Position numbers and translations under genes: made by a program. A stretch of DNA of 64,000 nt from Anoxybacter fermentans (GTDB taxonomy: Bacteria; Bacillota; Halanaerobiia; DY22613), in assembly GCF_003991135.1 (NCBI RefSeq), contig NZ_CP016379.1, positions 558,001-622,000 of the forward strand. Direction: 5' to 3'. Position 1 is the first letter of the stretch, and each line of letters starts with the position of its first letter. The notes under the pieces are model-generated. The model had not been told where the DNA came from, ran no database searches, and saw only the letters and a list, made by a program, of their open reading frames with translations. Of the stretch, positions 3,523 through 61,874 are shown one piece after another.

Positions 3523-3592
3523 AATTTTTAGTGCAAAATACCTTTTGATGGAAAGAAATAAAATATACAGGAAATAGTTAAAAAATTATATT

Positions 3593-3730
3593 TGATTAAA
3601 CTGCAAAAAGCTAATTTTGACTGCCATAGAAATTTTTCGTTAAACCATCTTATTTCGACTGAAATCGAACTTTAGGTGGTTAGAAAAATTTCTTTTGAAG
3701 TGAAAAAATTAGCTTTTTACAGTAAAATCA
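3593..3730 (-). repeat. Dispersed inverted-repeat element, copy 1 (short form)
   Basis: This 138-bp palindromic unit fills most of the gap between the IS and dprA. Both ends show the family terminus (aaactgcaaaaagctaattt, and its complement ending gctttttacagt). The arms contain gaaatttttcgttaaaccatctta on the left and the complement of aaccacctaaagttcgatttcagtcg on the right. Compared with copies 2, 3, 4 and 6 the arms are swapped, so this copy is inverted. The central double-hairpin module of the long form is missing. Confidence 0.85.
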
Positions 3731-3822
3731 TATTTTGATTTCTGCATAAATCTGTTTATGAGGGAGGAGAAATAAGCTCTTTGTAGAACTATGTAGGGAA
3801 AATAGATCTTGAGGAGGAAGGT

Positions 3823-5538: not shown

Positions 5539-7620
5539 GTGCCTGATAAATTAGTAATTGTCGAATCACCAGCAAAAGCAAAAACAATTAGAAAATTTTT
5601 AGGAAAAGAATTTCGAGTTGAAGCGTCAATGGGGCATGTGATTGATCTCCCTAAAAGTCAGTTAGGTGTAGATATAGAGAATAATTTTAAACCTAAATAT
5701 ATAACTATACGGGGAAAAGGAAAGATTTTAAATTCTCTAAAGAAGGCTGCTAAAAAAAGTAAAGAAGTATATCTGGCAACTGACCCGGACCGTGAAGGTG
5801 AAGCCATAAGTTGGCATCTTGCCAGAGCTTTAAAACTTGATACAGATAAACCATGTCGAATTGAATTTAATGAAATTACTAAAAAGGCGGTTCAAAATGC
5901 TATTAAAAGTCCAAGAGTTATTGATCAGCATAGAGTTGATGCTCAACAGGCACGTCGAGTTCTGGATCGTCTGGTTGGTTATAAACTAAGTCCCTTGCTT
6001 TGGAACAAAGTCCGTAAAGGTTTGAGCGCTGGCCGGGTTCAGTCAGTGGCTGTCCGGATTATTTGTGATCGTGAACGGGAGATTGAAGCCTTTGTTCCGG
6101 AAGAATATTGGACCATTGATGCTCAACTTTCAGATAAAAATGAGACTTTTGTTGCTAGACTTTATCGGATTGATAATAAAAAATTTAAAATTTCAAACGA
6201 GAAAGAAGCTAAAGAACATGAAACTTTGTTGAAAAAGGAGAAATTTATTGTTGAGGAAGTTAAAGAAATGGAACGGAAGCGTAACCCCTATCCACCCTTT
6301 ACTACCAGTAGCTTACAGCAGGCTGCTTCGAATTTTTTAGGTTTCAGTACCAAAAAGACTATGTTTGTGGCTCAACAGCTTTATGAAGGTCTGGATTTAC
6401 CACAGGGAACAGTTGGTCTTATAACGTATATTCGTACCGATTCGACACGTATTTCAGACGAAGCCCAGGTAGCGGCTAGAAAATATATTGAAAAAAAGTT
6501 TGGTTCTAAATATCTGCCTGAGAAAAAACGTTATTACCGGGCCAGGGAAGGGGCTCAGGACGCCCATGAAGCTATCAGACCCACTGATGTTTTTTTAGAA
6601 CCTGATTCTATTCAAAAATATTTAACACCTGATCAATATAAACTATATAAACTAATATGGGAACGGTTTGTAGCCAGTCAGATGAGCCCTGCAATTAACA
6701 AAATCTTTACAATTGATATTAAAGCTGGTAAATATCTCTTCCGTTTGACGGGAACTACTACTATTTTTCAAGGTTTTCAAATTATAGATTCATTTGGATC
6801 TAAGAAAAAAGATCAAGAGTTACCCGAATTAAAGAAAGGAGATATTCTGAATCTTATAAAAATCATACCTGAACAGCATTTTACTCAACCACCAGCCCGT
6901 TATACTGAAGCAAGTCTGGTAAAAACCTTAGAAGAGAAGGGGATTGGTCGTCCCAGTACTTATGCTCCTATTGTGGCAACTATTCAGCAGCGGGGTTATG
7001 TGGTTAAGGATGGTAAGACTTTAAAACCTACAGAATTAGGATTTATTGTCACTGATCTTTTGACTGAACATTTTCCAGATGTTATAGATGTTGAATTTAC
7101 AGCTATGTTAGAAGATCAGTTAGATAAAGTAGAAGACGGTTCTGTAGATTGGGTAAAGGTAATAAAAGATTTTTATAAAACATTTGAACAGAGATTGGAA
7201 CAGGCTAGAAAAGAGATGGAAAATGTTGAACTTGAATCTGAAGTTACGGATGTGATTTGTGAAAAATGCGGCCGGAATATGGTAGTTAAACACGGCCGTT
7301 ATGGAAAATTTCTGGCCTGTCCGGGATATCCTGAGTGTAAAAACACTCAGCCATATATTATTAAGACAGGGGTTAAGTGTATTGAGTGTGAGGATGGTGA
7401 ACTAATTGAGCGTCGGACTAAAAAAGGCCGGATATTTTACGGATGCAGTAACTATCCTGAATGTGAATTTATCACCTGGAATAAACCTGTTAAGGAAAAA
7501 TGTCCTGAATGTGGAGCTTTTTTAATAGAGAAACAGACTAAAAAGAATAAATATTATCAATGTGTCAGAAAAGAATGTGGATATAAGCAAAAAGAGGGTG
7601 TAAAAAATGACCAGGATTAG
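5539..7620 (+). CDS. topA: DNA topoisomerase I (type IA)
   Basis: A 693-residue type IA topoisomerase that relaxes negative supercoils. The Toprim domain is at the N-terminus ([33 protein letters not shown]). The active-site tyrosine lies in [14 protein letters not shown], and the later [30 protein letters not shown] block is diagnostic. Three C-terminal four-cysteine zinc ribbons (CEKC...CPGYPEC, CIEC...CSNYPEC, CPEC...CVRKEC) complete the usual Firmicute architecture. The start is GTG at 5539 after GAGGAGGTG; an ATG two bases earlier is out of frame. Its end overlaps trmFO by 14 bases, which suggests translational coupling. Confidence 0.98.
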
Positions 7621-8926
7621 AGTAATTGGTGCAGGACTGGCAGGCGTGGAAGCCGCCTGGCAAATTGCTAAAGCTGGAGTTAAAGTTGAGTTATGGGAAA
7701 TGCGTCCTTTAAAAATGACACCAGCCCATCATACTGGATATTTTGCCGAATTGGTCTGCAGTAACTCTCTTAAAGCAGATCATTTAGCAAATGCTGCCGG
7801 GCTTTTAAAAGCAGAGATGCGGGAATTAGATTCAATTGTCCTTGCTGCTGCTGACCGCCATGCTGTACCGGCAGGCCAGGCCCTGGCTGTAGATCGGGAA
7901 AAATATGCAAAAGAAGTGACAGAAAGGATTCTAAATCATCCTAATATAGAGTTTCATAATGGGGAAGTTACAGAAATTTTTAATGATGGTATAGTGATTA
8001 TTGCTTCAGGACCATTGACTTCCAACCCCCTTTCAGATGCAATTCAACGTTTAATAGGAACAGATTATCTTTATTTTTTTGATGCTGCGGCTCCAATTGT
8101 AACAAAGGAAAGTCTAGATCATAATATTGTTTTTAAAGCTTCCCGTTACGGTGATGAAGAAAATGGGGATTATCTTAATTGTCCAATGACAAAAGAGGAA
8201 TATGAAGCCTTCTGGCATGAATTGGTCAATGCAGAAAGGGCTCAGGTTAAAGATTTTGAAAAAGGAAAGTTTTTTGAGGGCTGTCTTCCCATTGAGGAGA
8301 TTGCTAGTCGGGGTATTAAAACTCTGGTTTTTGGTCCTCTTAAACCTGTGGGTTTAATTGATCCCAGAACCGGAGAAATGCCCTATGCTGTTGTTCAGCT
8401 CAGACAGGATAATTTAGAAGGAACCCTTTATAACTTAGTGGGATTTCAGACTAGACTTAAGTGGGGAGAACAAAAACGAGTTTTTTCTATGATTCCAGGT
8501 CTTTCTCAAGCTGAATTTGTCCGTTATGGAGTGATGCATCGTAATACTTATATAAACTCACCTAAATTGTTAAAAGCTACCTTGCAGCTTAAAAAAGATC
8601 CACGAATCTTTTTTGCTGGTCAGATCACCGGTGTAGAAGGTTATGTAGAATCTGCTGCGACGGGAATAATTGCAGGGATAAATGCTCTCCGCCTTTTAAG
8701 AGGAGAAAAACCGCTTATTTTTCCTAAAGAGACAGCTCATGGAGCATTAACTCATTACATCAGTACGTCAGTGCAGAAGTCTTTTCAACCAATGAATATG
8801 AATTTTGGTATTCTTCCACCTTTAAAGGAAAAGATTAAAGATAAACGATTAAAAAAAGAAAAGATTTCAAAGCGGGCTTTAGCCTGTCTGCGTCAGTTTA
8901 TTAATCAAAATAATATTCTAACATAA
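7607..8926 (+). CDS. trmFO: Methylenetetrahydrofolate-tRNA-(uracil-5-)-methyltransferase TrmFO
   Basis: A 439-residue flavoprotein that makes 5-methyluridine at position 54 of tRNA, using methylenetetrahydrofolate rather than SAM. The N-terminal FAD-binding motif is [17 protein letters not shown], and the family blocks [30 protein letters not shown] and [18 protein letters not shown] are present. The start lies within the end of topA, preceded by GAGGGTG. The order topA-trmFO is typical of Firmicutes. Often xerC follows; here the next stretch is a repeat element and then hslV. Confidence 0.98.
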
Positions 8927-8933
8927 AAATTAA

Positions 8934-9158
8934 TGGTTAAACTGCAAAAAGCTAGTTTTTCGCTTTTTGAGAAATTTTTCGAATCATTTAAAGCTCGATT
9001 TCCGCCGAAATAAGGCTTCCTAATCAAAGGGTCTTCCTGGCTCTTAGAACTAGTTCATCACCTTCTGTGATGAGGCCTTATTTCGTTGGAAATCTCGCTA
9101 AGATGATTTGGCGAAAAATTTCTATGTCACTCAAAATTAGCTTTTTGCAGTATAATCA
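8934..9158 (+). repeat. Dispersed inverted-repeat element, copy 2 (long form)
   Basis: This 225-bp palindromic element fills most of the trmFO-hslV gap. It is bounded by actgcaaaaagctagttttt and the complement of actgcaaaaagctaatttt. The outer arms carry gaaatttttcgaatcatttaaagctcgatttccg (left) and the complement of gaaatttttcgccaaatcatcttagcgag (right). The centre has the extra module: a hairpin around aatcaaagggtcttcctggctctt, then catcaccttctgtgatg, bracketed by aataagg and ccttatt. It lies upstream of the hslV promoter and is not part of a gene. Confidence 0.88.
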
Positions 9159-9213
9159 TTAATAAGATTTTAATAATTATAATATGATTTTAATAAAATC
9201 AATAGAATTAAAC

Positions 9214-9241
9214 TTGACATAAATTAGAATCTTATGATAAT
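9214..9241 (+). promoter_or_regulatory. Sigma-A type promoter for hslV-hslU-codY
   Basis: TTGACA (9214-9219) and GATAAT (9236-9241) with a 16-base spacer, in AT-rich DNA between repeat copy 2 and hslV. The -35 box is perfect. Confidence 0.72.
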
Positions 9242-9318
9242 ATATATTAATATGTAGAGGAATTTTCTATTTTAGTCTGATGAATGAGTATAATATTTTG
9301 AAAAGGAGGCTTGAAGGA

Positions 9319-9849
9319 ATGTTTCAGGCCACAACTATTGTTGCTGTAAAACATAAAGGCCGGGTAGCTATGGCGGGAGATGGTCAGGTTACCCTGGGTA
9401 ATACGATTATGAAGCACGGGGCTAAGAAAGTGAGGAAAATTTATCATAACGAAGTTTTAGCCGGTTTTGCCGGAGCTGCTGCTGATGCATTTACACTTTT
9501 TGAAAAATTCGAGGGAAAGTTAGAAGAATTTCGTGGCAATCTGAAACGCGCTGCTGTTGAATTGGCTAAAGAGTGGCGTACTGATAAAATTCTGCGTAAA
9601 TTAGAAGCTCTTTTAATTGTTGCAAATAAAGAAAATCTATTGATAATTTCCGGAACAGGTGATGTAATTGAACCTGATAAGGGAATTGCTGCTATTGGCT
9701 CGGGGGGACCTTATGCCCATGCTGCAGCATTGGCATTAGTTGAATATTCAGATTTGACGGCAAAAGAAATTGCGCAGAAGGCATTAGAGATTGCAGGTTC
9801 AATTTGCATATATACTAATCAGAATATAACCGTTGAAGAGTTATCCTAA
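9319..9849 (+). CDS. hslV: ATP-dependent protease proteolytic subunit HslV (ClpQ)
   Basis: A 176-residue proteasome-like threonine peptidase, the proteolytic ring of the HslUV protease. The product begins [28 protein letters not shown]. Removal of the first four residues would expose the catalytic threonine, as in Bacillus ClpQ-like proteins with a short propeptide. The ATG at 9319 has AAAGGAGG nine bases upstream; an upstream in-frame ATG at 9280 would add 13 unsupported residues. Later blocks such as [31 protein letters not shown] and [16 protein letters not shown] match the family throughout. hslU follows after 17 bases. Confidence 0.97.
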
Positions 9850-9866
9850 TGTGAGGAGGGGATACG

Positions 9867-11252
9867 ATGGAAGAATTAACCCCACGACAGATTGTTGAAG
9901 AATTGGATAAATATATTGTTGGTCAACACCAGGCCAAAAGGTCTGTAGCTATAGCTTTAAGGAATCGCTATCGTCGTAAAAAATTACCTCCAGATTTGAG
10001 AGATGAAGTAGTACCAAAAAATATTTTGATGATAGGACCTACTGGTGTAGGTAAGACAGAGATTGCTCGTCGTCTGGCTCGACTTGCAAAAGCACCTTTT
10101 ATTAAAGTTGAGGTTACAAAGTTTACTGAAGTAGGTTATGTGGGTCGGGATGTAGAGTCAATGATCCGGGATCTGGTAGAGGTAGCTATTAGAATGGTTA
10201 AAAAAGAACGGATGGTAGAAGTGGAAGATAAAGCATTACAGCTTGCAGAAGAACGGATAGTTGATATATTACTACCTATGCCTTCACCAAAGAAAAAAAA
10301 TCCGCTTAATATGTTTTTTGGTAATTATAATGAACCTTCTCATGAAGAAGATGAAGAAGCTTATTCCCGGATAAAAGAGCGGAGAGCCAGACTTTTAGAG
10401 AGGCTTAGAAATGGTGAATTGGAAGATAAGATTATAGAAATTGAAGTAGAACAACAGAGTGCGCCGATGATTGAAATCTTTTCTGGTGCCGGTATTGAAG
10501 AATTAGGAATTAATTTTCAGGACATTTTTGGCGGGATGTTTCCGTCAAAAAAGAAGAAAAGAAAAGTTACTATTAAAGAGGCAAGGGAAATTTTAAAGCA
10601 GGAAGAAGCACAAAAACTTATTGATATGGATGACGTCTCTATGGAAGCTATTCGCCGTGTAGAAGAATCGGGAATTGTTTTTTTAGATGAGATTGATAAA
10701 ATTGCAGGAAGAGAATCGGGTCGTGGACCTGATGTTTCCAGAGAAGGAGTACAGAGGGATATTTTACCCATTGTTGAAGGATCAACGGTAATGACCAAAT
10801 ATGGTCCCGTTAAAACCGATCATATTTTATTTATTGCTGCTGGGGCTTTTCATCTTTCCAAGCCATCTGATTTGATTCCCGAATTACAGGGTCGTTTTCC
10901 CATTCGAGTGGAATTGACCAGTCTTTCTGAAGAGGATTTTAGACAAATTTTAACTGAACCGGAAAATGCCTTGATTAAACAATATAAAGCACTTTTAGCT
11001 ACAGAGGGTATTGAAATTGAATTTACACCGGAAGCAATAAAGGAATTGGCTCGAATTGCTTTTGTTGTTAACGAACAGACAGAAAATATTGGAGCAAGAC
11101 GCCTTCATACTATTTTGGAAAAACTTTTAGAAGAGCTGTCTTTTGAAGCTCCTGATTTGAAGACAAAACAGGTTACTATTGATGTTAATTATGTTAAACA
11201 GCAGTTAGGAGATGTAGTGAAAGATAAAGATTTAAGTAAATATATCCTTTAA
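9867..11252 (+). CDS. hslU: ATP-dependent protease ATPase subunit HslU (ClpY)
   Basis: A 461-residue AAA+ unfoldase that feeds substrates to HslV. The start [25 protein letters not shown] is typical. Walker A is [17 protein letters not shown], followed by the pore loop [20 protein letters not shown]. The inserted I-domain spans about residues 110-235, and Walker B is [12 protein letters not shown]. The sensor and C-terminal region [19 protein letters not shown] is intact, and the protein ends in the short hydrophobic tail (SKYIL) that docks into HslV. The start has GAGGAGGGG upstream. It sits between hslV and codY, a standard Firmicute operon. Confidence 0.98.
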
Positions 11253-11319
11253 AAGGTTTATAATAAAAGATTCTAATTGGGAAAAAATATACTATAGGCA
11301 AAAGAAAGGGGAATTGAAG

Positions 11320-12108
11320 ATGAAGACTTTATTAAATAAAACCAGGCAAATTAATCGATTAATTCAGCGGTCTGCTGGTCAACCTGTTGATTTTACTGAA
11401 ATGGCAATGGTATTGAGTAAATCTATCAATTGTAATGTTTATGTGGTTAGTGCAAAAGGTAAAATACTGGGCTATCAGCTTTTAGATGAGTTTGAATGTA
11501 GTTTGATGTTTGAAGAAGTAATAAACAAAGGGTATTTCCCTGAAGATTACAACAATCGGCTTTTAAGAATTACTGAGACAAAATCAAACATTGAAGCAAA
11601 ACAGGGCAAGTGTGTTTTTAAGAATGAGGAAAAATGTATTTTTACTCAAAAGTTAACTACCATTGTTCCTGTAGTCGGTGGTGGTGATCGACTGGGAACT
11701 TTGGTTCTGGCTCGTTTTGGTGAACCTTTTAATGAAGGTGATTTGATTCTAGCTGAATATGGTGCAACAGTGGTTGGAATGGAGATACTCCGCTCTAGAG
11801 CTGAAAAAATAGAAGAAGAAGCCCGGAAAAAGGCTGCAGTTCAGATTGCTTTAGAGACTCTCTCTTATTCCGAGTTAGAAGCTATTGAACACATCTTTGA
11901 AGAACTCGATGGTGATGAAGGATTACTTGTGGCAAGTAAGATTGCGGATCGGGTTGGAATTACTCGTTCAGTTATTGTGAATGCACTCCGTAAGTTTGAA
12001 AGTGCTGGTGTAATTGAGTCCCGCTCTCTGGGAATGAAGGGCACTTATATAAAGGTTTTAAATGATAGACTTTTGGATGAATTAGAGAAAATTAAAAGTA
12101 AAAAGTAA
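11320..12108 (+). CDS. codY: GTP-sensing transcriptional regulator CodY
   Basis: A 262-residue global repressor of nitrogen and amino-acid metabolism, which in other Firmicutes senses branched-chain amino acids and GTP. The N-terminal GAF-type domain starts [25 protein letters not shown] and contains the ligand-pocket region [17 protein letters not shown]. The C-terminal winged helix-turn-helix reads [44 protein letters not shown], almost identical to characterised CodY proteins. The ATG at 11320 has AAAGGGG eight bases upstream; a TTG six bases earlier is too close to that site. A terminator follows, so it ends the hslVU operon. Confidence 0.98.
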
Positions 12109-34838: not shown

Positions 34839-34886
34839 TTTTGGGGATAGTATAAAATTTTAGCAAGATTCAAAAAAAGTATAAAA

Positions 34887-35108
34887 GGTTAAACTGCAAA
34901 AAGCTAATTTTTCAATCCATGAGAAATTTTTCGAACCATCTAAAGCTCGATTTCCGCCGAATAAGGCTTCCTAATCAAAGGGCCCTCCTGGCCCTTGATT
35001 AGCTCATCACCTCCTGTGATGAGGCCTTATTTCGTCGGAAATTTCGCTAAGATGGTTTAGTGAAAAATTTCTCAAGAAGCGAAAAATTAGCTTTTTGCAG
35101 TATAATCA
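34887..35108 (+). repeat. Dispersed inverted-repeat element, copy 3 (long form, best preserved)
   Basis: A 222-bp palindrome after polC. The ends are aactgcaaaaagctaatttt and its complement. The outer arms contain gaaatttttcgaaccatctaaagctcgatttccg and, on the other side, the complement of gaaatttttcactaaaccatcttagcgaaattt. The central module has two hairpins in a row: GGGCC-ctcct-GGCCC extended by aatcaa/ttgatt, then CATCAC-ctcct-GTGATG, all inside aataagg/ccttatt. It directly abuts the decayed IS1380-type element. Confidence 0.9.
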
Positions 35109-35113
35109 TATTA

Positions 35114-36678
35114 CCTGAATCCGTGATGCTTTTTTAAACTATGTGTTCTCTGAACATTTTTTTAGACATCTATGAGACAAAACACAGCAATAAAGTAATT
35201 TGTTATATTACTATTTCATTAGTCTCAAAAAAAAGGAAATAAATACATTTCTTTCTAGAATAATCGAAAGATTCAAAAAAAGTTAATTTCTAACTTTATC
35301 TACTTGTTATATATCGACAATAAGATATATTCACATGATTTTATTACAAAAAGATAATTTTTCTCAATTTAATCGTGCGTAAGATATCTTTTGATAAATC
35401 TCCTTAAAAACTAAAAACCATGGACTATGACGCCCAAATGAAAGTTTATATTGTCGAGCATGGTAAACCAAACGACATGCTAAATAAATCAAATTATGAA
35501 TGACTGTTCTAATAGGTCTGCGTTGGGCTTTTTTACGTAAAGGAGTTTTCGTAAAACCAACCATCATTTGCCCTATTATACGCAATATATTATAAGCCAG
35601 TACATCAAGATGTAAAATCAAATTGTTGGTAGCAAATTTGCCACTCGGCAGTCTTTCCAGATCTAAATCTGTTTTTATCTCACTATGAAATTGCTCACTG
35701 GTACCATGTTTTTCATAAGGTTCGATAATAACTTCTGGCTCATCGGGTAGACTCGTCCAGTATGTATCTACTTTGATTTTGGGCATTAGTAAAGTTTGTC
35801 CGTCTGGTAGTATGGTTTCCTCTGTAACTTTATAAATAAGTCGAATTTGATGATTGGTTTCACCATTTTCTGTCTTTTCTTTAAACTCAATTTTCTGAGA
35901 ACCTAAATAAACTATTTTGCCTTCACGCTCTTTTATCATAGTTCCATTTTGTTTAGCAATGGCATACCATGTTTCAGGTTTTTCTCTACGCATGTTGCGT
36001 TTTATGATAAAGTCAGCTTTAGTTTCAGGGTTTAAACAAATCTTTCTATTTTCAATGCTGTCATAGCCCGAATCCATGCGGATCAGCAGAGGTAGTGAAG
36101 TAATTTTTTTAGCATAGCGAATAGCATTAGCCAGGAATTCAGCAATACCATTTTGAGAGTGATCCTTAAGATATAGGAGTAATTGGCGCTTTAACCTTTT
36201 TTATCAAATGGACTGCCTCTTCTAAAATAATTTTATTCCATTGTGGATGGCGTCCAACCGTATCAAGACGTTGACGTAATGTAGGACTGGAAGGTACTTG
36301 TTTTAAACCCAATAATATTGCAAAAAAATCATCTTCACGAAACTGTTCAATACAATCAAAATCATTTTTTCCCTGACACAAAAGTCCGATATGAGCTGCT
36401 ACAACATCACCGTTAGAAATTGAGGGTGTGGAAACCCCTTTTAGCCTTGTTAAATTGAGACGTTTTTTTAAGGGTACGAGATTCAGCAGTTCTCCAACTA
36501 ATGCTAAACCTGAATGACTGGAAATAAGTTCGTTGGATTGTTCAAGAATGAATTTCATTGACTTATTTGCACTTTCCGGGTGAAAATTAATAATCCGAAA
36601 TAAATGTATTTTCCTCTATAATACTTCTATTTTTACCTAGTTTCTTCCTTTTCTAATTTTAAAAATCACGGATTCAGG
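35114..36678 (-). mobile_element. Decayed IS1380-type insertion sequence
   Basis: CCTGAATCCGTGAT (35114-35127) is matched exactly by its complement at 36665-36678, framing 1565 bp. The transposase within is broken. About 235 bp of AT-rich DNA lies between the left end and the transposase stop, and about 105 bp between its start and the right end. The left terminus begins six bases after repeat copy 3. No clear target duplication was found. Confidence 0.8.
35364..36558 (-). pseudogene. IS1380-family transposase, internal deletion and frameshift
   Basis: The N-terminal part (36558-36166) reads through DFDCIEQFREDDFFAILLGLKQVPSSPTLRQRLDTVG and stops after KVKAPITPIS. A different frame continues at once with YLKDHSQNGIAEFLANAIRYAKKITSLPLLIRMDSGYDSIENR and runs to the normal end at 35364. 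IS1380 transposases usually have about 40-50 residues between these parts, including a catalytic aspartate region. So a deletion that also changed frame is the simplest reading. The gene cannot give an active transposase. Confidence 0.85.
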
Positions 36679-36977: not shown

Positions 36978-37085
36978 ATGAAGGTATTGGTTCCAGCTAA
37001 TAAGACAGAAAGTGGTATTATAGCAGTTCATGCACTCTGTGGACCTTGTTCGCATCTTGGTGGATGTAGAACAATTGCAGGATAA
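36978..37085 (+). CDS. Candidate RiPP precursor peptide with C-x2-C-x5-C core
   Basis: This 35-codon gene has a perfect GAAGGAGGTGA ribosome site ending six bases before the ATG, stronger than almost any other in the window. The product has a short, moderately polar N-terminus (about 20 residues) and a core ending ALCGPCSHLGGCRTIAG, with cysteines at 21, 24 and 30. Subtilosin A, a sactipeptide, has the same C-x2-C-x5-C spacing, also with S after the second cysteine. A radical SAM/SPASM maturase and two ABC half-transporters lie downstream on the same strand. Only five residues follow the last cysteine, so the thioether acceptors would differ from those of subtilosin. That it is a precursor is inference; that it is a well-translated small gene is well supported. 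Confidence 0.72.
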   Translation: MKVLVPANKTESGIIAVHALCGPCSHLGGCRTIAG

Positions 37086-37102: not shown

Positions 37103-37144
37103 GGAGAAAAGTAAGTGGTGCTTTATAACCACTTACTTTTCTCC
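37103..37144 (+). terminator. Perfect 17-bp hairpin after the precursor-like gene
   Basis: GGAGAAAAGTAAGTGGT pairs without mismatch with ACCACTTACTTTTCTCC around an 8-base loop, starting 18 bases after the stop codon. No T-run follows, so it may act as an RNA-stabilising or partial-termination element rather than a classic terminator. The stem itself contains AAGTAAGTGG-type sequence but no gene. Confidence 0.7.
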
Positions 37145-37549
37145 TCGCAATTATAGAAACTTTCAAAATAGAGAATATAGGAAAATATTGTATTCAAGCG
37201 ATGAAAGGCGAATAATTAGATTCTCTGGTTTTGAAAAGCTTTATTATGATGAGAAATTAATTAGTAGCATCAAATAAAATATGAAGTTTCTTAGAAAATG
37301 GAAGTTGGTAATAGTTTAAAACCATTCTATCAGTTAGAGTACAAAATATTGTATTTCGAGTCAAGTAATAATTCACCATTTAATAAAAATATGGAAATTA
37401 AAGTTTATAATAAGTTTTGTTATTAATTATACTTTTTTAAAACCAACCAGGGTTAAAGAGTTTTGTTGTGCTACTCTGATTTTTTGCATTTATCTGTAAT
37501 GCTTATTGAATCTTGGATCTTGTTCAATAGTCCATCTAGTAACTTATGC
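37145..37549. other. AT-rich stretch with no supported gene
   Basis: About 400 bp between the hairpin and the second decayed IS. A 60-codon frame (37095-37277) crosses the hairpin and has no ribosome site or recognisable relatives, so it is not called. The left end of the IS should lie here, but no terminal repeat could be matched. Confidence 0.5.
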
Positions 37550-38879
37550 TCAGTTTTCAATTATTCGACCAGTGGAGTCTGTAATCTGCAAAGGTGGTTT
37601 ACCGCCAAATGAATCATGGGGTTTTAAGTAGTTGAAATACAACTGATACAGTATTGCATGAGAGATAGCACCTTCGAAAGAACTGAAGCTTTTATGTCGT
37701 TTGTAATATGATTTATAAGTTCCAAAGAAGCGTTCTACTATGTTTTTGTAAGGCCGATAAACTTCATTGCTGTAATCGACTATTCCATAGGGAAAAAGCC
37801 CTTTAATCTGGTGGTGATCGATATTTGCATTTAGAAATACTTTAGCAGCATGTACAGCAACTTCATAGATTAGAGCTTTATAGGTCACTAGAGTGAATTT
37901 TTTACCATCGTATTGTTCGATGACCCTTTGTAGAATTGTAAGGGCAGCTTTAGCATCACGATGTTTAGAAAGATGCTGAATGATGACAAAACCATGTTTA
38001 CCATCGATGGCTGTAAATAAGCAGTGCCATTTGCCTTTAATTTTGACATAGATTTCATCGATAGCGACAATATCAGATAAAGGTAAAGGTAGTTTTGGAA
38101 TCAAGGGTGCCAATTTAGCAGCTAATGAAACTGTCCATTTTTGAATGATCTCTTTTGATAGAGAAACTTGCCAGGTTAGTTTGATAGCCTGTACAGTTTG
38201 TTGTAAAGAGAGACCTAATCCGATGTAGAAATCAATAGCTTTAGAGATTAAAAAGTTCCGTAATGGCTGTTAGCCAGGTTAACTGGTGTTTTTTGTGGAG
38301 ATGAGATTTCTAACTCATTTGGATCAAAATCAAAAGCACGATAACGATATCTTTTACGTTGATTAACCCATTTAGGGCAGTTATCGTTTTTACATTTGTA
38401 TTTGGTGTAATGTTTTCTATGTTTTTCTTTAGAGAGGGCATAACCACAAAATAGGCAATAGTATGTAGGATGTGTTTTAGGTTGATGAGGCTTTTTTGGA
38501 GCCCATTGATATTTACAGACTTTACACTGAAGTTTTTGATATCCATCCCGATCACGTCCAAAGAGTCTGAGATAGTCTTCAGAGGGGCTCCACAGTGTGG
38601 GCATTCATCGACATCAATATTTAAAGATTTAATTCTGCGTACAGGTTTGATTGGTTGTCCATTTTTTTCAGCTTCAGCGAGTAATGTTTGATAATCTTTG
38701 TAAACAGGTTTTACAAGAGGTAAAGGATTATCTAGGCTGTTTAATTTAGAGTAGTTATCATCAATCTGTTTAGATGGTGTAAAATCAATACGGAAATATT
38801 GTGAGAGAACTAAAAAGAGATGAAGAAGAAAATTTAATAAAGAATTTAAGAGGATATTGAGTAGTGGTTGACGAATCAT
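37550..38879 (-). pseudogene. DDE transposase with zinc-ribbon N-terminus, broken by frameshifts
   Basis: Three minus-strand frames make up one transposase. The first (from 38879) ends its sensible part at DVDECPHCGAP. The second picks up with SEDYLRLFGRDRDGYQKLQCKVCKYQW and further zinc knuckles, and stops at SHYGTF near 38248. The third starts with LISKAIDFYIGLGLSLQQTV and runs through DIVAIDEIYVKIKGKWHCLFTAIDGKHG to VERFFGTYKSYYKRHKSF. Where the second catalytic aspartate is expected the frame reads LVTYKALIYEV, so it seems lost as well. At least two one-base shifts are needed. The IS family was not identified with certainty. Confidence 0.82.
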
Positions 38880-38886
38880 AACTTAC

Positions 38887-38959
38887 GAATCCCTCCATTC
38901 TGGGTGTAGTGAGTTTTGGTTTGGTCAACTACTACCTACTACTCCAGGGGGAGGGATTC
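38887..38959. repeat. Inverted repeat at the right end of the second decayed IS
   Basis: GAATCCCTCC (38887-38896) pairs perfectly with GGAGGGATTC (38950-38959), with further partial pairing inside. It probably marks the terminus or a subterminal structure of the element. Confidence 0.55.
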
Positions 38960-39066
38960 CTTCTTTTTTAGGAAAATCCCGACTCTACAAGGAAAAATCA
39001 AGCTTTTGCCCCTTGAAAAAGGGAGAAAATTTGACGGAACAGATTAATTTAGTGGAAGGAAAATAT

Positions 39067-40435
39067 ATGAAATGGACAAATTATTATACATTCTTTGATT
39101 TGAAAAATCATTATTATTTGCTTAATACTTTAAATTCTGCATTAATTGAAATAGATGAGGAGTATCTATCAAAGATTAAGCATGTAATTTCGGACTGTAA
39201 TTATGATGTTCTTAGTAAGGATGAGATTAAAATTCTTACAGAAAATAGGTTTCTTATTAATGATTCTTACGATGAACTTTTAGCTGTTCGTAATAAATAT
39301 CTTTTGTCAAAATATCGATTAGGGAACAAAATAAAAATAGATATTGCCGTTACTAATCAATGTAATTTTAGATGTCCATACTGTTTTGAAAGATTCTCTA
39401 ATAATACAATGCATACAAGTATTGCAGATGAAATAAGAGGTAATTTTGTAAAAAAATTTAAAATTTTATATAACATATATGTCAAGCAATTATAAAATAA
39501 GAGAATTGCAGATAGTTTGGTATGGTGGTGAACCATTGCTTGAGTGGCCTTTCATACATTTTATAAACGATGAATTAATTAGTTTATCTGAACGATTTGG
39601 CATGAAATATAATAACATAATAGTAACAAATGGTTATTTACTCGATGAATCAATTGCGAGGGCATTAGGAAAGCAAAATATAGAGTATGTTCAAATTACT
39701 CTTGATGGCACTGAGCACATTCATAATTTAAGAAGAAGAATTGCTAACGGTGGAGGCTCATATTCAACGATTTTACAAGGGATTTCTTATTTATTAAATA
39801 ATAATATAAATACTGTTATTCGTATTAATGTTGATAAAGAAAGTATTAATTCAATTAGCTCGCTTATTGATGAGTTATATAGGAAATATAAAAAATATGT
39901 AAAAACTAAACTACTTTCTTTAGATATAGCACGAGTGTATGGATATAGAAAATCTTTTTCATTGTCTGATTTTTATTACATGTGTAGGAATATTTGGTTA
40001 AAGACAGTACATTATGGTTTTATTACTCCATCATTACAAGTTGCAGGTATAGGAACTTTTTGCGGAGCTGAGAGAGATTCTCTTACTGATATAGTTGTAG
40101 ATATTTTTGGGAATCTTTATAAATGTTGGAATTATGTATTTGTAAAAGGAGCAAATTATTCAACATTAGAAGAGTTAGCAGAACACAATTATGAAATAAT
40201 CCCTCAAAACAGAAATAGGCTGAGGTATGTTGAAAAAGCTTCCCTTCTAAGCATCAATAATGGTAAATGTTTAAGCTGTAACTATTTTCCCTATTGTCAA
40301 GGACTTTGTCCAGATCTTAGACTTAGAATAATGAAGAGTTTGGAAGAAAATATATATAATAGGGATAAGTGCAAATCGATAGTTAAGGATTATCTAGAAA
40401 CCCAAATAGAGGCATTGTTATCTTCTAAGGAGTGA
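39067..40435 (+). pseudogene. Radical SAM/SPASM peptide maturase, split by a one-base frameshift
   Basis: The first part (39067-39495) has an N-terminal winged-helix-like region of about 85 residues, as in peptide-modifying radical SAM enzymes, then the cluster-binding C99-x3-C103-x2-C106 (VTNQCNFRCPYCFE). The second part (to 40435) in the +1 frame has WYGGEPLLEW, NGYLLDES and VQITLDGTEHIHNLRR. Its C-terminus is a SPASM domain for two more iron-sulfur clusters: C-x15-G-x4-C, C-x2-C-x5-C-x3-C and a last C. The parts join in frame if one A is removed from the A7 tract at 39450-39456, giving about 455 residues, a normal length. It may be a true mutation, a slippage site or a sequence error. The ATG at 39067 has GGAAGGA six bases upstream. 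Substrate: probably the peptide at 36978. Confidence 0.85.
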
Positions 40436-40440
40436 TAGTA

Positions 40441-42054
40441 ATGATGAATGTCATCTTCAGGCAGTTTAAGTTCTTATGGCAGCAAATGCCAAAAGGATAT
40501 AAGCAATATTATACAATTTATATGCTTATTTCTGTTGTTCATGTTTTCATTTTTCTGCTTCTTCCACTTATATACAGAGATATAATAGACGCTCTTACAA
40601 AAGAGCATTATTCTCCAGAGAAAATTTTTCTTTATATCATTCTCACTTTGGCAGGCTATGCTTCAATAAGGATATGGAGTCTTATAAATATCTATTTCAA
40701 AGAAAAAATGAAAAAAATTATTATGGATAAACTTTTTCATTCTGTACTGGAGATGGATTCAGCTCATTTTAAATCAAGAGAGCCAGGTTATTGGGCAAGT
40801 ATTTTTTCAAAGGACATAGATATGACATCAAATATGTATCTGGATTTTGTTTATACTCTTCCTGCTGAAGGTATTGCCCTTGTTGCGATACTTGTCATTA
40901 TTGCTATTAACTGTATGCCTATTACTTTTGTTATTCTTTCAGGATTAGCTATTGCAGGTTTCATAAATTATTGGAGAGATAAATATGTGGTGCCTTACTA
41001 TGATAAAGCACAGGAGGATTTCAGGAATACAATTGATATAGTTAATGCTTACCTCAAAGGGGTAGGAGATTTATTGCACAATCAGGCAGAGAATGTTTTT
41101 ATTCAAAAATTAAAAGAGAGATTTGTCATTTACAGTAATCATCTTGAAAAATATTTTAAAAAGGATTCCATAAGCGAATATTTCATTTCAGTTACAAATG
41201 AAGTTACAAAAATGGCAAGTGTTGGGCTTTCTTTATTTTTCTTTATAAAGGGAAATTTTACTTTTGGTACAGCAATACTTCTTATTATGTTTTCTTCCAC
41301 TGCCTGTGAAAAGGCAAAATATTTAGTGGAGAATTTCAAATGGCTTATGAATTTTCCTCCTCACATTAAAAAGGTGCAAATGGCTATTGAATCTCCACAA
41401 TTAATAAAGAGCAAGCAAAATATATCTAGTGATTTTATTGCTTTAAATTTAAACAATATTGGTGTTAAATACAATGATAAATGGGTAATAAGACATTTTT
41501 CTATGGAAATAAAAAAAGGTGAGAAGGTTGCATTATTGGGGAAAAGCGGTATAGGTAAATCAACAATTTTAAAAGTAATTTCAGGGAGTATCAGGCCCTG
41601 TGAAGGTAAAGTAGAGTTTATTTATTGTTGCCCGAAGATAGGACTTCTCTCTCAGAGATGTTATCTGTTTAATAGAACCATAAGGGAAAATATGTTAAGT
41701 GTAAAGCCTGATGCTAAAGATGAAGAAATTATTGAAGTATTAAAGAATGTTGGATTGTTTGACTGGTTTCGAAGATTGCCTTTGGGGTTAAATACGCAAA
41801 TTGGCCAATTGGGCAAATTGGTTTCTGGCGGAGAAAAAGCGCGATTATCATTAGCCCAACTCATTCTTTTAAATCCTGATTTAGTGCTTATTGATGAACC
41901 GTTTGTAGGTGTGGATAAGGAGCGTAAAGACGAAATTATGCAATATATGAAAAAGTTTTTACAGGATAAAACCTGTATAATTGTAACCCATGATGATGAC
42001 ATAGTTAAAACCCTTGCCTTGCGGTGTGTTTATGTGAGAGGTGATAGCTTATGA
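40441..42054 (+). CDS. ABC transporter, fused membrane and ATP-binding domains (exporter half 1)
   Basis: A 537-residue half-transporter with about six membrane segments in the first 310 residues. The ATPase domain has Walker A GKSGIGKST, signature VSGGEKARLSLAQL, Walker B LVLIDEP and switch histidine in IIVTHDDD. There is no C39 peptidase domain, so it does not cut leader peptides itself. The ATG at 40441 follows TAAGGAG that overlaps the end of the maturase. It ends four bases into the start of the second half, so the two halves are almost certainly made together as a heterodimer. Confidence 0.92.
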   Translation: MMNVIFRQFKFLWQQMPKGYKQYYTIYMLISVVHVFIFLLLPLIYRDIIDALTKEHYSPEKIFLYIILTLAGYASIRIWSLINIYFKEKMKKIIMDKLFHSVLEMDSAHFKSREPGYWASIFSKDIDMTSNMYLDFVYTLPAEGIALVAILVIIAINCMPITFVILSGLAIAGFINYWRDKYVVPYYDKAQEDFRNTIDIVNAYLKGVGDLLHNQAENVFIQKLKERFVIYSNHLEKYFKKDSISEYFISVTNEVTKMASVGLSLFFFIKGNFTFGTAILLIMFSSTACEKAKYLVENFKWLMNFPPHIKKVQMAIESPQLIKSKQNISSDFIALNLNNIGVKYNDKWVIRHFSMEIKKGEKVALLGKSGIGKSTILKVISGSIRPCEGKVEFIYCCPKIGLLSQRCYLFNRTIRENMLSVKPDAKDEEIIEVLKNVGLFDWFRRLPLGLNTQIGQLGKLVSGGEKARLSLAQLILLNPDLVLIDEPFVGVDKERKDEIMQYMKKFLQDKTCIIVTHDDDIVKTLALRCVYVRGDSL

Positions 42055-43658
42055 AGCGAATAAAATGGCTTTTTCATATATTGCCCAAAACCATAATAAT
42101 AGATTTTATTATTACATTTTTCTTTTTCTTTGCATCAGACATTGGCATATTATTAATGCCATTGTTCTATGCAAAAATTCTCGACAAGGTTCAAAAATTA
42201 CATAACTTTCCTTTTGTGTATTATTTAACATGGGGAGGACTTATTTTAGTTTTGGTAACAGTACGCACATACATGACATATAGAAATAGTAAACAAAAAG
42301 TTAAGATACATAAAATACTTGCTGTAACAACAGGCAAATTGATTTTTAATGTTCCCTTGCAAGAAGTTGTAGCAAAAGGTTCGCAGTATTACACAGATGC
42401 AATTTTAAATAGAACTGGAGAGGTATCATCATTATTTGATATACAAAACATGACAGGTATTATAAATCTCGCAAGACTTATTGTTTTAACAATACTCATT
42501 ACATATATTGATAAAATATCAGGTGTGTCTTCCTTTATTGTAGTAATTGTATCTATCCTTATATATAAATATGGAAATAATTATTATCTGAAAAATAATG
42601 CAAAGTTCATAGAAAAAAAGAGGCAATACTTAAGTGATGTGGAAGATACGATTTTTGGAAAGGAAGAGATAGAAAATTTTGGGACTTTTGATTATGAAGA
42701 GAAACGCCACAATGCTTTAACAGAAGAATTAAGGAAAATGCACACCAAAATTTTAGCCAGAGATTTTATACATTTTTTTATAGAACTGGATGCTGTAAGG
42801 ATTGCTTATGAACTTTTCATATTTGTCTGGGTATTGAATAGAGTTTATACTGGATTATATTCCTTAGGGATTGGCATAGTCTTGATTTCTTACAGTAGGA
42901 TGCTTACAACCCCTATTGTATATCTTAATTCTATCCTGACGAATTTCAGAAATAATTTAACTGCTCTTGATATTGTACATAACCTGGATAAAAATAAAAC
43001 ATTGCCCAATTCAACACCAATTCCTGTATTGGGCAAGAAGATTGAAAAGATTTGTTTTCGGAATGTAAGTTATAGAGTTAATGAAAAAGTAATACTTAGT
43101 AATTTATCATTTGAATTGAGGAAAGGAGAGAAACTTGCTATTGTTGGCCCTTCAGGCAAAGGGAAAAGTACAATTATTTCTTTGCTTTTGAAAGATTGTG
43201 TGCCTACATCAGGAAAGATACTTGTAAATGATGTAGATATTAAATATATAGATAAGGATTGGCTATATACTCACATTGGTCTACTTTCTCAAAATGGATA
43301 TTTATTTCCAACTACAGTGGAAGAAAATATACGGATGGGTAATACATCTGTTACAACTGCGGAAGAAAATGAAATTTTAAAAGAGGTAGAATTATCGTCA
43401 ATAGAACTTAATTACAAAGTCCGTGAAGGTGGACAAAACCTATCTGGTGGTGAAAAATCCCGGTTGCTTTTGGCCAGGCTTATTGCTCAAAATAAAGATT
43501 TTGTCATATTAGATGAGCCTTTGGAGGGAGTGGATGTTAAAACGAGAAGTAAAATTATAGAGAATTTAAAAACATATTTAGCTTCAAGAACTGCTATCAT
43601 TATTACACATCACACTGAAATAGCCAATGCCCTTGCCACACGGAAAATATTAATCTAA
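42051..43658 (+). CDS. ABC transporter, fused membrane and ATP-binding domains (exporter half 2)
   Basis: A 535-residue half-transporter of the same build: six membrane segments, then Walker A GPSGKGKST, signature LSGGEKSRLLLARL, Walker B FVILDEP and switch histidine in IIITHHTE. Like half 1 it carries GEK rather than GQ in the signature. Overlap of four bases with half 1 shows translational coupling. The likely role is export of, or immunity to, the modified peptide; this is inferred from context. It ends the island; nothing recognisable follows until the rimP leader. Confidence 0.92.
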   Translation: MKRIKWLFHILPKTIIIDFIITFFFFFASDIGILLMPLFYAKILDKVQKLHNFPFVYYLTWGGLILVLVTVRTYMTYRNSKQKVKIHKILAVTTGKLIFNVPLQEVVAKGSQYYTDAILNRTGEVSSLFDIQNMTGIINLARLIVLTILITYIDKISGVSSFIVVIVSILIYKYGNNYYLKNNAKFIEKKRQYLSDVEDTIFGKEEIENFGTFDYEEKRHNALTEELRKMHTKILARDFIHFFIELDAVRIAYELFIFVWVLNRVYTGLYSLGIGIVLISYSRMLTTPIVYLNSILTNFRNNLTALDIVHNLDKNKTLPNSTPIPVLGKKIEKICFRNVSYRVNEKVILSNLSFELRKGEKLAIVGPSGKGKSTIISLLLKDCVPTSGKILVNDVDIKYIDKDWLYTHIGLLSQNGYLFPTTVEENIRMGNTSVTTAEENEILKEVELSSIELNYKVREGGQNLSGGEKSRLLLARLIAQNKDFVILDEPLEGVDVKTRSKIIENLKTYLASRTAIIITHHTEIANALATRKILI

Positions 43659-50451: not shown

Positions 50452-51396
50452 ATGCAGTTGATTACAGATGAAGAAATAATGAAAAATCACGATAAACCTA
50501 TGATAGTTGCCCTGGGTTTTTTTGACGGTATTCATTACGGACATCGTGTTATCATAGAAGAGACAGTTCGTCAGGCCAGAGAGTCAAATGTCTTGAGCGG
50601 AGTTTTTACTTTTCATCCTCATCCTTTAAAGGTTCTGGCACCGAAGCGGGCTCCCGGATTAATTACAGCTTTATCTCAAAAAAGGCGGATTTTAGCTGAA
50701 ATGGGTGTTGACCGACTAATTGTAAAAGCTTTTACTAAAGAATTTGCTGCCACTGATTTCCGTTCTTTTGTTCAGACCTATCTGGTTCAATATTTAAAGG
50801 TAAAAGGTGTTGTTGTGGGAGAAGATTTTCGTTTTGGTAAGGAAAGTAAAGGCGATGCTACTGCTATGAAGGAATTGGGCGAAAAATACGGTTTTACTGT
50901 AACTGTCTTTGATACTATTAGGGTAAATGGGGTAGAAGTTAGAAGCACTTTGATTCGCAATTTGATTCTTAAAGGTCAGATGGATAAGCTCCTTACTTAT
51001 TTAGGAAGACCGTATACTTTGGTTGGTAAAGTTGTTCGGGGAGATGGCCGCGGTCATCAATTGGGATTTCCTACAGCAAATTTATCATTAGCAGTTGATT
51101 ATGTTATTCCTGATTACGGAGTATATGCCGGGTATATTATTGTTCATGGTAAAAGATATCAAGCTGTTGCTAATATCGGAGTCAGGCCTACTTTTGCTAA
51201 ATCCGATCTTTCTATTGAAATTCATATTCTGGACTATTCAGGGAATTTATACGATGAGATAGTTGAGATTGAATTGATCAAAAAAATACGTTCTGAGCGT
51301 TCTTTTGATTCAATTGATGAGCTGGTGGCTCAAATTAAAGATGATATTGTATCAACCCGTCAAATTTTATCAAATGACATTACTGCAAAAAGTTGA
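50452..51396 (+). CDS. ribF: Bifunctional riboflavin kinase/FAD synthetase
   Basis: A 314-residue enzyme making FMN and FAD. The N-terminal nucleotidyltransferase has VALGFFDGIHYGHRVIIEE, and the C-terminal kinase has GKVVRGDGRGHQLGFPTANL and YGVYAGYI. The ATG at 50452 has GAGAGGTG upstream; the GTG at 50443 lies in that site. The last codons and stop (ACT GCA AAA AGT TGA) are formed by the terminus of repeat copy 4, so the natural C-terminus has been replaced. Confidence 0.97.
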   Translation: MQLITDEEIMKNHDKPMIVALGFFDGIHYGHRVIIEETVRQARESNVLSGVFTFHPHPLKVLAPKRAPGLITALSQKRRILAEMGVDRLIVKAFTKEFAATDFRSFVQTYLVQYLKVKGVVVGEDFRFGKESKGDATAMKELGEKYGFTVTVFDTIRVNGVEVRSTLIRNLILKGQMDKLLTYLGRPYTLVGKVVRGDGRGHQLGFPTANLSLAVDYVIPDYGVYAGYIIVHGKRYQAVANIGVRPTFAKSDLSIEIHILDYSGNLYDEIVEIELIKKIRSERSFDSIDELVAQIKDDIVSTRQILSNDITAKS

Positions 51397-51561
51397 TTTT
51401 TCACTTCATAAAGAAATTTTTCGAATCATCTAAAGTTCGATTTCAGTGACTTGATTAGCTTATCATATCCTGTGATGAGGCTATTCTTTTCAATCTCACT
51501 AAGAGATGGTTTAACGAAAAATTTCTATAGCGTTCAAAATTAGCTTTTTGCAGTTTAATCA
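51375..51561 (+). repeat. Dispersed inverted-repeat element, copy 4 (partly decayed long form)
   Basis: A 187-bp palindrome with ends actgcaaaaagttgattttt and the complement of actgcaaaaagctaatttt. Arms gaaatttttcgaatcatctaaagttcgattt and the complement of gaaatttttcgttaaaccatctctta. The central module is reduced to cttgattagcttatcatatcctgtgatgagg. It starts inside the ribF coding sequence. Confidence 0.88.
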
Positions 51562-51595
51562 TCAAATTAATAATTTATATTAGGTATAATGAGGG

Positions 51596-54864: not shown

Positions 54865-54873
54865 TTTGAAAAA

Positions 54874-55043
54874 TGATCCTACTGCAAAAAGTTAATTTTT
54901 CGCTTCATCACCTCCTGTAATGAGCTAATCAAGGGCCAGGAGGACCCATTGATTAGCGTGCCTTACTTCGACTGAAATCGAACTTTAGATGGTTCGAAAA
55001 ATTTCTTTATAAAGCGAAAAATTAGCTTTTTGCAGTAAAATCA
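54874..55043 (-). repeat. Dispersed inverted-repeat element, copy 5 (long form, inverted)
   Basis: A 170-bp element with ends actgcaaaaagttaattttt and the complement of actgcaaaaagctaattttt. Its left arm is shortened and runs straight into the central module. That module (catcacctcctgtaatg, then aatcaagggccaggaggaccc) is reversed relative to copy 3, as are the outer arms. It lies between the pnp terminator and nfo. Confidence 0.88.
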
Positions 55044-61574: not shown

Positions 61575-61608
61575 GGGTCCCACCTCCTTATAAATTTATT
61601 ATTTAATA

Positions 61609-61745
61609 TGATTTTACTGCAAAAAGTTAATTTTTCGTTTCAAAGGAAATTTTTCGAACCATCTAAAGTTCGACTGAAATTTCACTAAGATGGTTAAACG
61701 AAAAATTTCTATATAGCTCAAAATTAGCTTTTTGCAGTTTAATTA
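61609..61745 (+). repeat. Dispersed inverted-repeat element, copy 6 (short form)
   Basis: A 137-bp palindrome with ends actgcaaaaagttaattttt and the complement of actgcaaaaagctaattttg. Arms gaaatttttcgaaccatctaaagttcgactg and the complement of gaaatttttcgtttaaccatcttagtgaaattt. No central module. It lies in the divergent gap between the amidase and the first deacetylase. Confidence 0.88.
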
Positions 61746-61874
61746 TTTAATATATATTTGTACAGTAGATAAATCATGCTTAAAAGATACTTTATCCTAT
61801 CAGGCATATTTTACTCTTAAGATGAATAAGTAGTTATAGGGACTAAACCCGTCATAAAGAGGGAGGAATTCCTG

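Follow-up and report, generated by a model that had tools for sequence, protein, structure and literature searches.

The maturases of the CefB, Clo7bot and TIGR04463 systems share a full-length layout in which an N-terminal domain, a radical SAM core and a SPASM domain follow one another in a single protein. These are the families whose models best match the product of a gene at positions 39067–40435 of the window, by which we mean the whole stretch of 64,000 nucleotides analyzed here (Anoxybacter fermentans, contig NZ_CP016379.1, positions 558,001 to 622,000). When its two reading frames are fused, the protein scores 172.1 bits against the CefB model (NF038107; cut-off 600), 170.9 against Clo7bot (TIGR04334; cut-off 600) and 167 against TIGR04463 (cut-off 525), with E values of 1e-48 to 1e-50, and it has this full-length layout in common with them. 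All three scores fall far under the curated cut-offs, placing the protein outside each of these equivalogs, and the cut-off for PapB-type ranthipeptide maturases, enzymes that make thioethers to non-alpha carbons of their precursor, is missed as well (110.1 versus 340 bits). The nearest solved structures by sequence, namely 8vpo, 5wgg and the sulfatase maturases, are distant. The fused reading matches PF04055 (Radical_SAM) at 58.3 bits (cut-off 29.5) and carries the CxxxCxxC motif. No SPASM model in Pfam matched it; read by eye, SPASM cysteines lie at YKCWNY, CLSCNYFPYCQGLCPD and KCKSIV, all of them kept in the ortholog described below. As befits a peptide maturase, a small precursor gene conserved with that ortholog's cluster lies nearby. 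Judged by these motifs, the fused protein belongs to the radical SAM enzymes and has cysteines of the SPASM type.

Scanning the species-genome collection brought up one clear relative of the maturase, whose contig bears the label Thermoanaerobacter sp. A7A (MAG; NZ_AVAF01000129.1). The cluster there (positions 6733–11688) matches that of the window in its four genes and in their order, with identities of 57% for the precursor, 53% for the maturase and 50–53% for the exporters, and a stable hairpin occupies the same place after its peptide gene. It differs in that its maturase is uninterrupted (454 amino acids, positions 7105–8469) and in that no element separates precursor from maturase, the gap being 261 bp rather than the almost 2 kb of the window, where an IS6/IS240-like element accounts for the distance. 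Just upstream of this related cluster, at 828–2300, the same contig encodes another radical SAM maturase, distinct from the first, together with more ABC exporters. By its genes, the locus in the window is a small RiPP cluster consisting of a Cys-rich precursor, a radical SAM/SPASM maturase and two ABC exporters, placed, to judge by the neighboring sequences, between polC and rimP–nusA. Its features are as follows.

36978–37085, plus strand: Cys-rich precursor gene, 35 amino acids (MKVLVPANKTESGIIAVHALCGPCSHLGGCRTIAG), with a strong Shine–Dalgarno sequence (GGGGAAGGAGGTGA) and a match to the Thermoanaerobacter peptide.
37103–37144, plus strand: 17-bp hairpin just past the precursor gene, RNA fold −29 kcal/mol, z −7.3.
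About 37264–39041, minus strand: defective IS6/IS240-like element between precursor and maturase, with NF033587 and PF13610 matches and broken transposase frames.
39067–39495, plus strand: N-terminal part of the maturase with CxxxCxxC (CNFRCPYCFE), its start and N-terminus agreeing with the ortholog.
39450–39456, plus strand: A7 tract, site of the frame break and top-scoring break point against the ortholog.
39452–40435, plus strand: remaining maturase sequence, read in the +1 frame (WYGGEP, SPASM cysteines), its first ATG (39479) without a Shine–Dalgarno sequence.
40441–42054, plus strand: ABC exporter 1 (permease–ATPase), intact, with PF00664 and PF00005, 50% identical to its Thermoanaerobacter counterpart; alternative starts are GTG 40432 or ATG 40444.
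42051–43658, plus strand: ABC exporter 2 (permease–ATPase), intact, with PF00005 above and PF00664 below the cut-off, 53% identical to its Thermoanaerobacter counterpart.

The precursor came to light through the Thermoanaerobacter contig, which carries a gene for a 36-residue Cys-rich peptide upstream of its maturase. Used as a query, that peptide has its sole match in the genome at 36978–37085 (E 2.5e-9, 61% identity); the two peptides are 57% identical overall, and CGPCSHLGGC is invariant between them. No Pfam or NCBIfam model matched the precursor, which sets it apart from the CefB, Clo7bot and TIGR04463 systems, and among 398 genomes of the phylum no third clear case was found, one match (locus L047) being weak. 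Precursor and maturase are each single-copy in the genome. The initial annotation had overlooked both this gene and the insertion element by which the cluster is divided.

The maturase gene begins at ATG 39067, preceded by GGAAGG, and lacks one continuous reading frame: frame 0, which encodes CNFRCPYCFE, runs into a premature TAA at 39493–39495, and the +1 frame, with the codons for WYGGEP and for the SPASM cysteines, stays open between 39452 and a stop ending at 40435. The two overlap at 39452–39493. Skipping one base yields a fused reading of 455 codons, just as the initial annotation had counted, and this reading aligns with the Thermoanaerobacter maturase over its whole length, with 243 identities and a single gap near the C-terminus; only with this skip is the alignment gapless across the break. 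The halves are similarly conserved (51% and 55% identity), and in either protein 58 residues lie between CxxxCxxC and GGEP, compared with 48–53 in more distant homologs. To locate the break point, every single-base skip that leaves an open frame (39449–39493) was scored against the ortholog: the seven positions of the A-tract each reach 1336, all others 1333 or less, and a two-base addition 1325. Because skips in the A-tract score best, homology places the break there, where it had originally been proposed, with adjoining positions scoring nearly as well. The original claim that the A7 at 39450–39456 breaks the maturase frame is thereby borne out by the sequence and the fused alignment together, and the lesion is a true frame break inside a single conserved gene. 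Two neighboring genes instead of one are ruled out by the full-length ortholog.

Since the break coincides exactly with a poly-A tract and slippage rates climb with run length (PMC5574713), it is conceivable that the tract slips during transcription or is phase-variable, yielding some full-length maturase or acting as an on/off switch. Several considerations render this improbable. Repairing the frame would require the loss of one base or the gain of two, whereas the usual transcriptional insertion adds one: 80% of such insertions comprise a single nucleotide, and deletions are rarely tied to homopolymers (PMC5574713). Either the gain of one base or a −1 ribosomal slip at A_AAA_AAA would lead instead to a stop at 39459–39461. 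Seven adenosines also make a short run, given that selection against slippery runs, seen as their avoidance in coding regions, becomes visible at a length of nine in many genomes, with differences between organisms (PMC1088944). Nor is the tract conserved, as the ortholog has TGTAATAATTTGAG at the break site, and about 40 A/T runs of equal or greater length occur in intact genes of the window, marking such tracts as ordinary. The brevity of the A7 and its absence from the ortholog thus tell against the on/off slippage switch that the initial annotation had entertained; its other suggestion, a recent break or a sequencing error, gains from the single lesion in 455 codons and the intact genes downstream. 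That the maturase is truly phase-variable or slippage-dependent, with the length of the A7 switching modification of the Cys-rich peptide, we consider very improbable.

Programmed recoding was considered separately. Programmed +1 frameshifting is ruled out, the shift site having neither a stop codon nor a Shine–Dalgarno sequence. In prfB, by contrast, a stop codon and a Shine–Dalgarno sequence accompany the +1 shift site. For programmed −1 frameshifting, A_AAA_AAA does have the required phase, yet ribosomes entering the −1 frame would meet a stop immediately, at 39459–39461. A further scenario, in which the two fragments are made separately, the second from the internal ATG 39479, and then act together as a split enzyme, is scarcely credible. 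Restart would be geometrically possible, this ATG preceding the first frame's stop codon by 14 nt, but it has no Shine–Dalgarno sequence before it, the cut interrupts the radical SAM barrel at a point past the cluster loop and ahead of the GGEP strand, and in the closest homologs of full length the enzyme is one chain.

The surroundings of the gene have been invaded by mobile elements. The right end of the IS6/IS240-like element (39041–39042), 25 bp before the maturase ATG, is common to other genomic copies, and its left end (~37264) is supported by loci L026/L027 and L029 only. No clean target-site duplication was found for this element; ATTAATT occurs near both ends, as a candidate. Several breaks interrupt its transposase gene. 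The window copy has ~1.6% private substitutions and one private deletion, and its stop and frame damage is partly common to other copies. A remnant of an IS1380-type transposase lies at 35364–36558. The cluster has therefore been disturbed, and maturase and exporters now stand far from the promoter region of the precursor; promoter-like matches in the cluster region were not above chance. Dating the lesion by the insertion element was attempted and dropped, as the element may have inserted already defective. Because it may have been defective on arrival, the idea that selection on the cluster persisted after the insertion is likewise weak.

Some observations concern the repeats themselves. Within the IS6/IS240-like family, all genomic copies examined (including L021–L027) have broken transposase frames, and two of them, L021 and L022, end beside the apparent end of a MITE-like palindromic repeat. 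This repeat, ~225 bp long with ends AACTGCAAAAAGCTAATTTT and AAAATTAGCTTTTTGCAGT, has dozens of copies in the genome, among them those in the window at 34882–35110, 8929–9159, 51382–51562, 54870–55043, 61604–61746 and 3580–3734. Its RNA would have a folding energy of −112 kcal/mol. Rfam gave no match in the window.

What, then, produced the break? The reading we favor, with a probability of roughly 0.6, is a recent loss-of-function indel of one base in the A-run of the maturase, within an IS-disturbed RiPP cluster. Replication slippage in the run may have generated the indel. The result would be an N-terminal fragment missing the SPASM domain and the greater part of the barrel and a C-terminal fragment without the SAM cluster, and since both would be incomplete, no working maturase is likely to be made. 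The insertion element had presumably disturbed expression of the cluster already, which may have relaxed selection on it. The main rival is that sequencing or assembly went wrong at the homopolymer, the gene being intact in the organism. A survey of 1,106 genomes expects breaks of this class, confined to a single genome and lying in genes with intact homologs, to be for the most part sequencing errors or recent indels (PMC3711429), which speaks for an error. A solitary lesion in 455 codons, with none in ~1,075 exporter codons, points the same way, and apart from it neither the maturase nor the exporters show any sign of lost constraint, as would also be the case for a functional gene carrying a sequence error. 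Against an error speak the assembly, a single contig that is 100% complete, and the other genic A/T runs of 7–9 in the window, which are intact: 44 lie in reading frames that need no correction to stay open, and 41 of these are located outside the insertion elements. Across the genome, internal stops occur at only one place among 88 ABC-domain matches. Given these intact runs and the one broken place, indels are not widespread in the assembly. The insertion elements that disturb the neighborhood, moreover, fit true decay. On balance, we regard an error as less likely than a true indel. As a separate observation, stops divide an ABC-domain gene at G000:C1:2402183-2402507 over two frames, and it is likely a pseudogene.

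The recent inactivating indel that we favor would, as a frameshift, be ordinary, since many genomes carry broken genes of this kind. As a useful by-product, the analysis yields a family of peptides sharing the core CGPCSHLGGC, found here in only two distant lineages (the genome of the window and the Thermoanaerobacter contig), which no Pfam or NCBIfam model matches and which comes with a dedicated radical SAM/SPASM maturase and a pair of exporters. On present sequence comparisons, the cluster would be an undescribed member of a known RiPP kind, and the intact Thermoanaerobacter copy could serve to test for a new cross-link as candidate chemistry. The break itself resembles the ‘singletons’ of the GeneTack survey (PMC3711429), which likewise combine one frame break with intact homologs, and what distinguishes it from them is confined to the A-tract and the adjoining insertion elements.
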